Of a stretch of DNA of 10,038 nt, positions 4,985 through 10,038 are shown piece by piece. Position 1 is the stretch's first letter, and each line of letters starts with the position of its first letter. Position numbers and translations under genes: made by a program. This DNA is from Candidatus Baldrarchaeum yapensis (GTDB lineage Archaea > Asgardarchaeota > Baldrarchaeia > Baldrarchaeales > Baldrarchaeaceae). The stretch lies in NCBI GenBank assembly GCA_016840465.1, contig JAEOSH010000068.1, positions 1 through 10,038 of the forward strand, read 5' to 3'. The notes below the pieces were generated by a model. It was not told where the DNA came from. It worked only from the letters and a program-made list of their open reading frames with translations, and ran no database searches.

Positions 4985-6145
4985 GTGGAAGCGTTGAGAA
5001 GGTCAGCATACTATTTGGTAATCTTGGTATTAGTACTAATTCTGGCAATAGCTAGCTACAGGCTTCTAACGGGACCCCAAGCGCAGGAGGAGATCGAGGC
5101 AACCGTTATATGCTTTATATCGCCGGATAACAGCTACAGCGTTATATGTCAGTTAATAGATAGCGCGAATCATTCGATATTCATAGAGATGTACTTGATG
5201 ACGAACCCATACCTTGTGGCCCGGCTCGACCACGCCATAGAGAGGGGTGTGAGGGTGATAGTAATATTAGAAGGAAATCCACTGGGTATCTCCGAGGAAT
5301 ATGTTGAATGGGTAGCTTATAATCTAACATTGGCTGGTGCCAGTGTTTACTGGGCACCTAAGGAGTTCAACTTCATGCATAGCAAGTTCATGATAATAGA
5401 CAACGAAACTGTCGTTGTGGAGAGCGCAAATTGGGCGAAAACCGGAATTCCGGTCGATCCATCATATGGAAATCGAGAATGGGGAATTGCCATTAAAAGT
5501 TCGGTGGTGGCGCAACAGTTTCTTGAGATATTCCTGAAAGATTTGGCAAATGCAACCTTCTATGAGCCATCCGGCGAGGAAGTATATGAAGGGCCATCAC
5601 CGTCGATTCCGGAAGGAAAATACAGTCCTCAATTTGAGCCTTTCGAGTATTCGGGCAAAATCCGCGTTAAGGCTGTGTTTTCGCCGGAAAATTCCGAGCA
5701 TGAGATTTTAGATTTGATAAGATCTGCGAATGAGAGCATATGTATTGAAGTCGTGTACATGTACTTACATTGGGGAGAGGAGATAAATCCGTTCGTACGT
5801 GCATTGGTTGACGCGAGCAAGAGGGGTGTAAGGATAAGAATTATACTTGACATTGGAAAGATGGATGACAGCACCGAAGCGATCGAGTATCTGCTCGATA
5901 ATGGTAATGCCAGCAACATCGAGGTTAGGTGGAGCAACAGCACCTACTTTGAGACGATGCACAACAAGGGAATAATCGTGGACGGGAAGGTTGTTCTGAT
6001 ATCGAGTATAAACTGGAGCGAGAGTTCGGTGTGGAAGAACAGGGAGGCAGGGGTTATAGTGTACTGCGAGGAAATTGCGCAGTACTATCTCGGGGTGTTC
6101 AACTGGGATTGGGCGGTATCAGTGCCGTACCAGCCATCCTCCTAA
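4985..6145 (+). CDS. Membrane-anchored phospholipase D family protein with two HKD motifs
   Basis: A 386-residue protein of the PLD superfamily, whose members hydrolyse or transfer phosphodiester bonds of phospholipids or nucleic acids. Both catalytic HxKxxxxD motifs are intact: H132/K134/D139 followed by SAN at 147-149, and H326/K328/D333 followed by SSIN at 340-343. The accompanying NRE turns (NREWGIAI, NREAGVIV) follow each. Two complete half-sites in one chain agree with a monomer forming one active site. An N-terminal hydrophobic segment (residues about 9-28) after Arg-rich MEALRRS suggests a signal anchor or signal peptide, so the enzyme probably acts outside the cell membrane. GTG 4985 is the longest start. 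TTG 4994, with GGGGTGGA just before it, is a good alternative that keeps the anchor. Substrate is unknown; cardiolipin-synthase-like, phospholipase and nuclease activities are all possible. Confidence 0.9.
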   Translation: MEALRRSAYYLVILVLVLILAIASYRLLTGPQAQEEIEATVICFISPDNSYSVICQLIDSANHSIFIEMYLMTNPYLVARLDHAIERGVRVIVILEGNPLGISEEYVEWVAYNLTLAGASVYWAPKEFNFMHSKFMIIDNETVVVESANWAKTGIPVDPSYGNREWGIAIKSSVVAQQFLEIFLKDLANATFYEPSGEEVYEGPSPSIPEGKYSPQFEPFEYSGKIRVKAVFSPENSEHEILDLIRSANESICIEVVYMYLHWGEEINPFVRALVDASKRGVRIRIILDIGKMDDSTEAIEYLLDNGNASNIEVRWSNSTYFETMHNKGIIVDGKVVLISSINWSESSVWKNREAGVIVYCEEIAQYYLGVFNWDWAVSVPYQPSS

Positions 6146-6190: not shown

Positions 6191-6736
6191 ATGGTGGGAA
6201 ATGCGGTCATAGATGCGACATCCCTCATATATCTCGCGAAGTCGTCGAACAAGGATCTGCTCCGGTTACTTTTCGGCAAGATACTGGTACCACCCGCCGT
6301 ATACGAGGAGGTCGTAGTACGCGGTAAGGAGATAGGTGCAAGAGATGCATTGCTGGTCGAGAGGAACATAAAGGAAGGAGTGCTGGAAGTTGTGGCCATA
6401 GACGATGATAAAGTGAAATCTGTTGAAAACATGCTACCTACCAAGCTATCGGCCGGGGAGAGGGAAGCGATAGCCATCGCAGCGACACGCAACTTGCCCA
6501 TCATACTTGATGATCTGGCCGCCGTGAGGGTATGTATGGACCTCGACCTCGAGACGCTAACATCGGAAATTGTCCTGATAACTGCGCTTATCGAGGGACT
6601 GATTTCAGCGAGAGAATTCGAGGAGCGGCTTTCGAGGTTACTCAACTATAAGAGGGTAAGGACGGATGTCCTCCTCCTAATATTGAAGATTCATGAAATG
6701 TGGGTGAGGAAGTTTGGTAAAGAAGGCGGTACTTAA
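6191..6736 (+). CDS. PIN-domain nuclease-like toxin (DUF3368-type)
   Basis: A 181-residue cytosolic protein with the layout of a PIN-domain ribonuclease. It has VIDATSLIYLAK at residues 6-17 with the first metal-binding Asp8, VPPAVYEEV at 33-41 with Glu39/40, LSAGEREAIAIA at 87-98 with Glu90/92, and PIILDDLAAV at 103-112 with Asp107/108. The spacing and the LSAGE block match the DUF3368 family of predicted nucleic-acid-binding PIN proteins. Such proteins usually cut RNA when not held by a partner. The start ATG 6191 is set by the TATA box 27 bases upstream. Its last 23 bases overlap the next gene, which encodes the likely antitoxin. Order is toxin first, antitoxin second. All acidic site residues appear present, so activity is plausible but the target RNA is unknown. 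Confidence 0.85.
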   Translation: MVGNAVIDATSLIYLAKSSNKDLLRLLFGKILVPPAVYEEVVVRGKEIGARDALLVERNIKEGVLEVVAIDDDKVKSVENMLPTKLSAGEREAIAIAATRNLPIILDDLAAVRVCMDLDLETLTSEIVLITALIEGLISAREFEERLSRLLNYKRVRTDVLLLILKIHEMWVRKFGKEGGT

Positions 6737-7052
6737 CATAAGAGTGGAGGAGTCTCTCCTGAGAGATTTGGACATGCTAGCCGAGATGGAAGGCCTGGAC
6801 AGATCCGAAGTTGCACGAAGCATTCTGAAAACAGGAATTAAGGAGCGGAAAATAAAGAAAGCGGTAGAACTCTACATGAAGGGAGAGGTCTCACTTGCCA
6901 GGGCTGCGGAGATAGCCGGAGTTCCTCTTACCGAAATGATCGATATTGTTAACCGTATGGGGATTGAGGACAGGATGACAGTAGAGACCTTCAGAGAACT
7001 CGTCAGAAGAGCGTTAAAAAGTAAAAAGCCCGAATTGTCCGATCTTATATGA
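6714..7052 (+). CDS. Antitoxin-like protein: ribbon-helix-helix plus UPF0175-type domain
   Basis: A 112-residue protein. Residues about 5-42 look like a ribbon-helix-helix DNA-binding domain (beta strand VLNIRVEE, then helices LLRDLDMLAEMEG and DRSEVARSILKTGI). Residues about 46-84 resemble UPF0175, with the pattern AVELYMKGEVSLARAAEIAG and a helix-turn-helix-like segment. UPF0175 proteins are common partners of DUF3368 PIN toxins in archaea, which supports the pair. The start is TTG 6714, chosen because GGTGAGG at 6703-6709 is correctly spaced. It lies inside the toxin gene, so translation is probably coupled. Expected roles are neutralising the PIN protein and repressing the shared promoter; both are inferred. 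Confidence 0.82.
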   Translation: MVKKAVLNIRVEESLLRDLDMLAEMEGLDRSEVARSILKTGIKERKIKKAVELYMKGEVSLARAAEIAGVPLTEMIDIVNRMGIEDRMTVETFRELVRRALKSKKPELSDLI

Positions 7053-7340: not shown

Positions 7341-7618
7341 TCGAATTATATATAATTTCTAGGAATGCCCGGTTCCTCTGATTCAATTTTGAATGAAGAG
7401 AAAAGTTTTGTAACGAGGAATCTCGCGGATCACATAAAGTGAATACTCGCTAGTGATGGCGAATTAGCAGGCCCCGATACCTTAAGGGAAAAGATTAATT
7501 AGAGTAACGTGTCGAACTTGTGTCCAACAGGTGGTAATCATGGTTCTAAGCAGGTAACTTCTTCTCGTCTCAATTCTCAGATGCTCTGATAAAATTGCGT
7601 CTTCTGGAGGAGATTTCT
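7341..7618. other. Intergenic region with palindromes, unknown role
   Basis: No convincing gene. AATTATATATAATT at 7344-7357 is a perfect 14-base palindrome that can serve as a TATA box in either direction. ATTCAA/TTGAAT pair at 7381-7394. CGAG-GAAT-CTCG forms a small hairpin at 7414-7425. A five-codon frame, ATG 7540 to TAA 7557 (MVLSR), has GGTGG at 7530-7534 in front of it and could be a short upstream ORF of the acetyltransferase fusion gene. If transcription starts near 7376, that gene would have a leader of about 240 bases. Confidence 0.4.
7606..7614 (+). promoter_or_regulatory. Ribosome binding site of the GNAT fusion gene
   Basis: GGAGGAGAT lies about five bases before ATG 7619. It is one of the strongest sites in the window and fixes the start of the long open frame. 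Confidence 0.7.
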
Positions 7619-10019
7619 ATGGGAGAAATTCTAGTGCGTCCGATGAGAGTAGAGGATTTCAAAGATGTTATGGAAATTTACGTCAGTTGTGATGAGGACT
7701 TCCCCTTCACCCTTCTAAGGGGAGAACCGCCCTATCCCGATGCGCTGAGATGGAGCTTCATAGAGTATGACCCCCTCATGAAGTTGGTCGCCGAGGTTGA
7801 TGGGAAGGTAGTCGGGTACCTATCGATTAACAGGCACTGGGAGGACCCCGATGCCGGATACCTCGAGTTTCTGATAGTCCACAGGAATTTTAGGAGGAGG
7901 GGCGTGGCGACTGCGCTGATCCGCGAGGCGCACAGGATCTTCAAAGAGAGGGGATTTCGGAGGTACTCTTTGGATACGTGGCTCACGAACTTCCGGGCCA
8001 GGAATTTGTACCGGAAAATGGGCTTCGTATGGGTGCCCGAGTCCGAAATCGTCTACGAGAACTTTCTACTGACGATAGAAAAAGTGCCGATATGCGCAGA
8101 ATGGCTAAATAAACACCCTGATGCGAAATTATCGGTTACAGAACACCCTGTAGAGTCCGAAAATGGCAAGTTTTGGGTTTACGAGTGGAAGAGCGACGGT
8201 GACGAGTTGCGGGTCGAGATAGACGTGAAGTCCAAAGGAATTAGGAGCATAACGTCCACCGAGGGTAAAGCCATTCTCCATGTAAGTGCAGTCCCAGTAA
8301 AATGGAAATATTACACAGGTGAGAACGTGAGCATCAGGGTGAGGGCGCTATTAGAGGGTAACGGGGAACTGGCATTAGGAATTCACGTAAAACTCCCCGA
8401 AGGATGGAAGGCGAACCCCTCTTTCATCTCAACACATATAAGGCCCTCGGAACAGTACGAGGTGAACATCTCGTTATCACCGGAAGGCGATGAACTTGAA
8501 GAGGGTGTGAAGAGTTTTCCGGTGATAGTATCGCTGGGTGGCAGATCGGTTGAATTAATGCCGTCATTTAAGGTCGAAGCCCCGCTCGAGATCATAGCCC
8601 CGGACAGTTACGTGATAATAAACTCCGGAGAGCGTGCGGAAGTCCCGATAGCGGCGAAGGTGAAGAGGAATTTAGAACACGCGACTATAAAGATACTCTG
8701 TGAGCCGGATCTTCTCATTTCCCCGAGAGAAATAAGAATAGAGCGCGCAAAGGAGGGGGACGTTGTCAAAGAAAAAATTGCATTGATGCCAGCCGGAGAC
8801 GACTATCGGGAGTACAGAGTAAAATTCGTATGTTACGCCGATAAAGAAGGTAAAGCCGTGCGGCTTCTCGAGTTACCAGTGGTCGTTACCAGGTTTCCGG
8901 GGGTTGCAGTTCTCAGGACCGGCGACCAATTGATAATCGACAACCCCCACATGAGGGTTATACTGAATGCAAAAACCGGAGACCTGAAGAAGATAGTGGA
9001 CAAAACGAACGGGGTCAAATGCACGTTCTGGGGAGGTATAAGAGAGGGGGTACACCCCAACTTCAATCTCCTGGAGTTTGTCACCCGGGAGTTCAGAATC
9101 GTGGAGAAGTCCCGCGAGAGGTGCGTAATAGAAGCGATCATGGAGTCATTCCGCAATAGAGATCTGCGCCTCACTAGGAGGATCACCGTTACGAACTCCA
9201 TGCCGGCACTACTACTCGAGTGGCAGTTAACAAATACGGGTGAAAGACCCTTCGAGGGAGCGTTAAAGGTAGCGCTTAATGTGCTTCCAGGAGATGAGTC
9301 CCCCGCGCACAGACTCGTGGTTCCCTATAGGAACTCCGTAATTTCCGATAGAGTTGTTAAGAGGTTCTGGCCTCCCATCTTTCCGCTTGCGATCAAAATT
9401 GGAGAAAGTGAAGGCTGGATTGCGATCGAGGACGAGCTACAGAAGTCCGTCACCGGAATTGTGGTAAGGGAAAATACCGGCGTCGACGAGATAGTCGCAG
9501 ATTACAGAGGATATGTTTACGGACTTGGCTTTCTACAGAGCAAAATCGGAAAGCTAAACCCCGGTGAGAGCATAAATATCGGACCGGTGGCGTTGCTTAT
9601 CACAAGGGGAGATTGGAGCATCATACGCCACTTTTATTTGAACTTTGGAGGGAAAAAGAGGCTAAAATCTCCCATTAAAATATTAAAACCATATGTTTTC
9701 TCGATAGAAGCTCCGAACGACGTCATCAGAAAGGATAAACCCTCCGAAATTGTAGTAACAGCACGTCGATTGGTATCACGTCCCGCCGCCGGCACGATAC
9801 GATTAAGGGAAAGCAATGGGATTCGTTTTTCGCCAAACTGTGTGCGCTTCGAAGTATTTGAGAAAGATTGCACTAGCGAGCGGCTATCGGTTACTATCGA
9901 TGAGAATTTGCAACCCGGGATCTACGAGATAAATGGGGAGGTAGAAATACTCGGCAGAATTCTACCGCTGAGCAGGTTGATAGCGCTGGTGTCGTCTTCC
10001 GGAACACTGAGTTACAAGA
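7619..10019 (+). CDS. GNAT acetyltransferase fused to long beta-rich, carbohydrate-protein-like region (3' incomplete)
   Basis: One frame of 800 codons without a stop, cut at the contig end. Residues about 4-155 are a GNAT acetyltransferase, which moves acetyl from acetyl-CoA to an amine. The CoA-binding RRRGVA (92-97) follows the strand YLEFLIVHR, and ARNLYRKMGF (127-136) is the conserved C-terminal motif. Residues about 185-320 form a beta sandwich like those seen beside glycosidases, including a GNGELALGIHVKLPEGW turn (248-263). A second sandwich-like block spans about 321-430. Residues about 432-670 begin VLRTGDQLIIDNPHMRVILN and recall the mutarotase-like fold common to sugar-processing enzymes. 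Another beta region begins about 690. These fold assignments are by eye. No signal peptide or membrane segment was seen, so a cytosolic site is likely. Nothing identifies the substrate; an amino-sugar or glycoprotein is a guess. Confidence 0.8.
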
Positions 10020-10038
10020 CTGTCTCTTATACACATCT
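10020..10038. other. Nextera/Tn5 mosaic-end adapter sequence, not genomic
   Basis: The last 19 bases, CTGTCTCTTATACACATCT, are identical to the transposase mosaic-end adapter used in Nextera libraries. They follow genomic-looking coding sequence at the contig edge. Translating through them adds the artefactual residues TVSYTH to the GNAT fusion. They should be trimmed. Confidence 0.97.

Follow-up and report, generated by a model that had tools for sequence, protein, structure and literature searches.

What would a cell do with a GNAT N-acetyltransferase that is joined, within one reading frame, to about 640 residues of almost wholly beta-strand sequence, and is the joint real or a product of assembly? 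The frame lies at the 3′ end of the window, by which we mean the entire stretch of DNA analysed here, a whole contig of 10,038 bases (C39) from a genome of 2.27 Mb that is 96% complete. It starts at an ATG at position 7619 of the forward strand, 6 bases downstream of a likely ribosome-binding site (GGAGGAG, 7606–7612, forward strand), and runs without interruption for 800 codons up to the contig end (7619–10018). The terminal 19 bases of the contig, CTGTCTCTTATACACATCT (10020–10038), match exactly the Nextera mosaic end, a non-genomic adapter sequence left untrimmed at 17 places in the assembly, on 17 contigs (G000); copies on contigs of known length lie at the contig end or a few bases from it. 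The frame stops at about 10019 because the assembly stops there, and the protein is therefore truncated by the assembly, in agreement with the cut-off implied by the coordinates of a first-pass annotation of this DNA. Adapter sequence at a contig end could suggest that the fusion is itself an assembly or frameshift artefact. However, the adapter touches the last 19 bases only, and the one continuous frame recurs in independent genomes and collections, so that this explanation is already refuted by the homologues and can be given practically no weight.

The fusion is genuine. Chance and misassembly are excluded because collinear homologues in many phyla share it; intact homologue genes are single frames of about 980–1150 amino acids, and the full-length architecture, roughly 1100 residues, is GNAT, beta module, Ig-like domain, super-sandwich, Ig-like domain, super-sandwich. 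Profile searches detected the beta region in 83 of 227 genomes of the same phylum (Asgard) and in 10 of 201 Chloroflexota genomes. When the beta region alone was used as query, it was found in 21 other Asgard genomes, where frames uncut by a contig end start with the GNAT domain. Among named genomes, a family search yielded 231 confirmed loci, of which the 80 that were kept come from archaea (Thor-, Hermod-, Hod- and Heimdallarchaeota, Bathyarchaeota, Thermoplasmata, and Theionarchaea) as well as bacteria (Paenibacillaceae of the Bacillota, Chloroflexi, Armatimonadetes, and Zixibacteria). This last search relied on a GNAT motif and so cannot alone prove the fusion universal, whereas the beta-only query and the beta-region profiles did not rely on it and can. 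Among 158 frames, drawn from loci partly redundant between collections, 153 hold the GNAT domain and the beta region together; of the five exceptions, those of L013 and L158 run into the end of a locus or contig, two are the pieces of an interrupted frame (L169), and that of L085 is a 116-residue fragment close to an intact copy. Hence the single uninterrupted frame described in the first-pass annotation stands, and the possibility it raised, that homologues would carry the two parts as separate genes or that a frameshift had joined them, does not.

Pairwise identities of the GNAT domain and of the beta segments are correlated across the family (r 0.80–0.82; 0 of 999 permutations), which fits inheritance of the two as a single unit. 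The window member is collinear with the family yet divergent, with mean identities of 0.28 in the GNAT domain and 0.15–0.18 in the beta part. It lacks several near-invariant family residues (the W of WPGGF, the DWY that follows the GNAT domain, and the GPPF of the first super-sandwich) and keeps the core GNAT positions. As a single-sequence query against genome contigs it gave no match, whereas the family alignment gave matches.

The search for full-length relatives, proposed earlier as a way to recover the missing C-terminus, supplied the second super-sandwich that is absent from the window; the homologues that have it are about 1040–1130 residues long. Moreover, a second contig of the same assembly (G000 C35:22-618, L120) starts with the same adapter, followed by a 198-residue open frame that ends in a stop. 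Residues 39–185 of this frame align to the C-terminal part of the family profile at 20 bits, with one stretch of 60 residues scoring better on the related first super-sandwich (26 bits). In length and position the frame suits the missing C-terminus of the window gene, across a gap of roughly 60 codons, and it is probably that part.

The N-terminal domain (residues 1–157; 7619–8089, forward strand) is a GNAT N-acetyltransferase by several lines of evidence. Residues 29–136 match Acetyltransf_1 (PF00583) with an E-value of 1.5e-23 and 83.7 bits against a Pfam cut-off of 20.7, and residues 2–157 of the structural model align to many solved GNATs with Z-scores of 17–19. The acetyl-CoA loop R-R-x-G-x-A is present as RRRGVA in the window translation, and T120, W121, N124, A127, Y131, G135, and W138 are invariant in the GNAT domain of the family. 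Sequence and structural hallmarks of the superfamily are found here: the fold, the profile score, the acetyl-CoA pyrophosphate loop (Q/R-x-x-G-x-G/A), and the N…A…Y of the C-terminal half. Judged from its residues, the intact core would be catalytically active. Neither a signal peptide nor a transmembrane stretch is evident in the protein by hydropathy, as the first-pass annotation had stated for export signals.

The protein was modelled with AlphaFold2 from 45 related sequences (mean pLDDT 86.2). Beyond the GNAT domain it comprises, on the forward strand, a first beta module (residues 170–306; 8126–8536), an Ig-like beta sandwich (309–424; 8543–8890), a first super-sandwich of the galactose-mutarotase/GH38 C-terminal fold (427–686; 8897–9676), and a further Ig-like beta sandwich (687–791; 9677–9991) that, by its position in homologues, precedes the missing second super-sandwich. 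In the model, the segments at approximately 170–306, 309–424, and 687–791 look like Ig-type sandwiches. For 309–424 this agrees with a Foldseek search with the whole model, which returned mostly chains of Ig-like domains at low TM-scores and was not used as a guide to function. The first module has a weak resemblance to NPCBM_assoc (NEW3, PF10633), which scores E 0.1 and 13.2 bits at residues 236–288 of the window protein, below the cut-off of 24.4, and reaches E 0.01 or better in 3 of 41 relatives (best E 1.3e-8); the Glyco_hydro_38C match of the window protein is also sub-threshold in Pfam (E 0.13).

Structural alignment gives a clearer picture of the super-sandwiches. In VIA-align, residues 427–686 match solved GH38 alpha-mannosidases, a PL26 lyase, and GalM-like proteins with Z-scores of 17–20, and residues 427–664 align to the GalM structure 3mwx with a Z-score of 18.4, as expected of the GalM super-sandwich fold. 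In the model of a full-length Brevibacillus homologue (1038 residues, mean pLDDT 84.5) the second super-sandwich occupies residues 765–1031 and aligns to GalM with a Z-score of 20.1. The guess made from the raw translation, that beta-rich units resembling mutarotase and glycosidase super-sandwiches are fused to the GNAT domain, is therefore borne out by the model and by the carbohydrate-associated fold that structural alignment returned; one unit of the window protein (427–686) is such a super-sandwich, and full-length relatives carry two.

Does this fold bring sugar chemistry with it? GalM requires two histidines and a glutamate, as in the Lactococcus enzyme. Across 41 family sequences no histidine beyond the GNAT domain reaches 65% conservation, so that, as judged by conservation, the GalM arrangement of two histidines plus a glutamate is not found. 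Pfam detected no glycoside hydrolase catalytic domain in the family; the GH38 catalytic domain is absent from the matches of the 41 members, which have only the C-terminal-domain fold in common with GH38 enzymes, and GH3 is not among the families listed for them. The absence of a conserved histidine and of a detectable glycosidase catalytic domain is the reason that we read the beta part as probably non-catalytic. The fold matches to GalM, PL26, and GH38 enzymes, together with the invariance of E598 and W600 in the first super-sandwich, might instead argue for a bifunctional enzyme with mutarotase, epimerase, lyase, or hydrolase activity in the super-sandwiches, but in view of these missing elements we hold that to be very improbable. 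Outside the GNAT domain few positions are conserved: besides the two invariant residues, N539 and R670 are conserved in at least 90% of sequences and W666 in about 83% (window numbering), and no obvious sugar-binding site emerges from the conserved beta-part residues.

In our preferred reading, to which we assign a probability of about 0.42, the protein works in the cytosol as an acetyl-CoA-dependent N-acetyltransferase, and its beta part serves to position a large amine that probably bears sugar. The N-terminal GNAT domain would be a permanent part of a protein of about 1100 residues, the beta part, devoid of sugar chemistry either from the start or through loss, would hold and position a bulky acceptor, and the GNAT domain would acetylate a primary amine of that acceptor. 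The acceptor would most likely be sugar-bearing, either an amino-sugar oligosaccharide or a glycoconjugate precursor, a choice favoured by the folds and by the precedent of the fungal enzyme RmNag. Counting against this reading are the small number of conserved positions in the beta part and the absence of WPGGF, DWY, and GPPF residues from the window protein. Alternatively, the beta part may only be a scaffold that stabilises the protein, lets it oligomerise, or binds partners; sugar would then play no part, and the GNAT domain would acetylate a protein or a small molecule. This would fit with the generic nature of the best profile matches of the GNAT part (RimI, PaiA, and WecD) and with the spread of the super-sandwich fold, which is found not only in enzymes but also in supporting domains and in proteins of unknown function (e.g., 5cd6). 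Mean pairwise identity is 0.41 in the GNAT domain, with its well-conserved active region, versus approximately 0.21 in the beta part, and a specialised glycan reader is therefore not required. On the other hand, almost all archaeal and bacterial members retain two super-sandwiches and the same succession of domains, which would be costly for a scaffold alone. We regard the scaffold role as possible, and as nearly as likely as the sugar-bearing amine because the beta part is poorly conserved and consistent sugar genes are lacking nearby.

No consistent sugar pathway was found among the neighbour genes of family loci, archaea included. In 16 Bacillota loci (Paenibacillaceae), an Amidohydro_2 gene lies directly 3′ of the family gene, overlapping it or within about 20 bases (e.g., L079:11098-11952), an identification that rests on Pfam scans of two of the 16 loci, with which the other genes cluster. 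The gene is absent beside the Cytobacillus family member and the association does not extend to archaea; it is the best functional lead. Asgard synteny is clade-limited. Since no neighbour is general, none was used to name the substrate. Some further neighbours are recorded here as observations. A histone-deacetylase-superfamily gene (L098:11143-12249) overlaps the 3′ end of one Chloroflexi member, an acetyltransferase/deacetylase pair seen once, and an ABC transporter gene adjoins some Bathyarchaeota and Theionarchaea members. In Hermodarchaeota, a gene for formylmethanofuran dehydrogenase subunit A lies upstream of the GNAT-beta gene (L061:5284-7005, syntenic in L065, L067, and L070), and in L061 a further GNAT gene stands between the two.

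Other genes of the window, all on the forward strand, are described for completeness. Between 748 and 1972, pieces of an AMP-forming acyl-CoA synthetase lie in different frames with stops between them (AMP-binding at 748–996 and 1090–1284, AMP-binding_C at 1652–1972), and represent either a pseudogene or a contig end with many errors. A phospholipase D-like protein at 4985–6142 has two PLD domains, and its hydrophobic N-terminus suggests that it is probably membrane-anchored or exported; DrmC models match it via the shared PLD fold. At 6191–7049, a PIN-domain gene is followed by an overlapping ribbon-helix-helix/UPF0175 gene, the two forming a toxin-antitoxin-like pair, and both match the PADLOC candidate PDC-S70. 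PADLOC gave no match to the fused protein, and Rfam gave none in the window.

The suggestion in the first-pass annotation that the protein acetylates or binds a glycan is reasonable but unproven: it was not borne out by a fold that is widely shared, by mutarotase histidines that are not conserved, or by neighbourhoods that lack a consistent sugar pathway. The family itself is large, conserved, and unnamed: about one in three of the searched Asgard genomes has it, as do Paenibacillus and Brevibacillus, which can be cultivated, yet annotation goes no further than "GNAT". Through the bacterial members its function can be put to a direct test. Should the acceptor be a glycan, the protein would perform a cytosolic glycan N-acetylation step common to archaea and bacteria.

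The impression of the first-pass annotation that no described family has this domain order agrees with the libraries tested, in which no family covers the whole architecture and the matches of the 41 members scanned are confined to short domain models, for the most part GNAT. The architecture was also not found described in the open-access literature, where absence is no proof. What is new is the way in which known folds are combined, not the kind of system. Bacillota relatives of approximately 1030–1060 residues are named just "GNAT family N-acetyltransferase", an annotation that covers the GNAT domain and leaves the beta part nameless; one of them, WP_233811912.1 of Cytobacillus spongiae, so named in RefSeq, belongs to the same family, with 96% coverage and 33% identity to the Brevibacillus member. 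Both super-sandwiches resemble those of GalM (3mwx), Bl_Man38B (7ufs), Ams1 (7vqo), and a PL26 lyase (5xq3) with Z-scores of about 17–21, but identity is 10–15%, the GalM histidines are not conserved, and no attached GH38 or PL26 catalytic part was found. In fungi, RmNag is a GH3-GNAT beta-N-acetylglucosaminidase (PDB 4ZM6) whose GNAT region acetylates glucosamine (PMC4680927), and it likewise joins a GNAT to a carbohydrate-enzyme module in one chain. However, in RmNag the GH3 hydrolase comes first, the GNAT is in tandem and last, and there are no super-sandwich domains, whereas the window family has a single N-terminal GNAT and, by Pfam, no hydrolase domain. In Ngs1, also fungal, a catalytically dead GH3 domain senses GlcNAc and the fused GNAT acetylates histones (PMC5063960). 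By analogy, the super-sandwiches in the window family might bind a sugar and switch the GNAT domain, making the protein a sugar-gated protein acetyltransferase, and a sugar-enzyme-like fold that lacks the conserved catalytic mutarotase histidines would suit such a sensor. We consider this unlikely, given that the GH3-like sensor of Ngs1, a eukaryotic nuclear protein, differs in fold and precedes the GNAT, and that no conserved ligand pocket emerged here. Less likely still, the family could be an Asgard-widespread prokaryotic counterpart of Ngs1, a sugar-sensing switch that would place protein acetylation, possibly of chromatin, under the control of sugar in archaea. What the two proteins do have in common is a non-hydrolysing, sugar-enzyme-like module fused to a GNAT domain.
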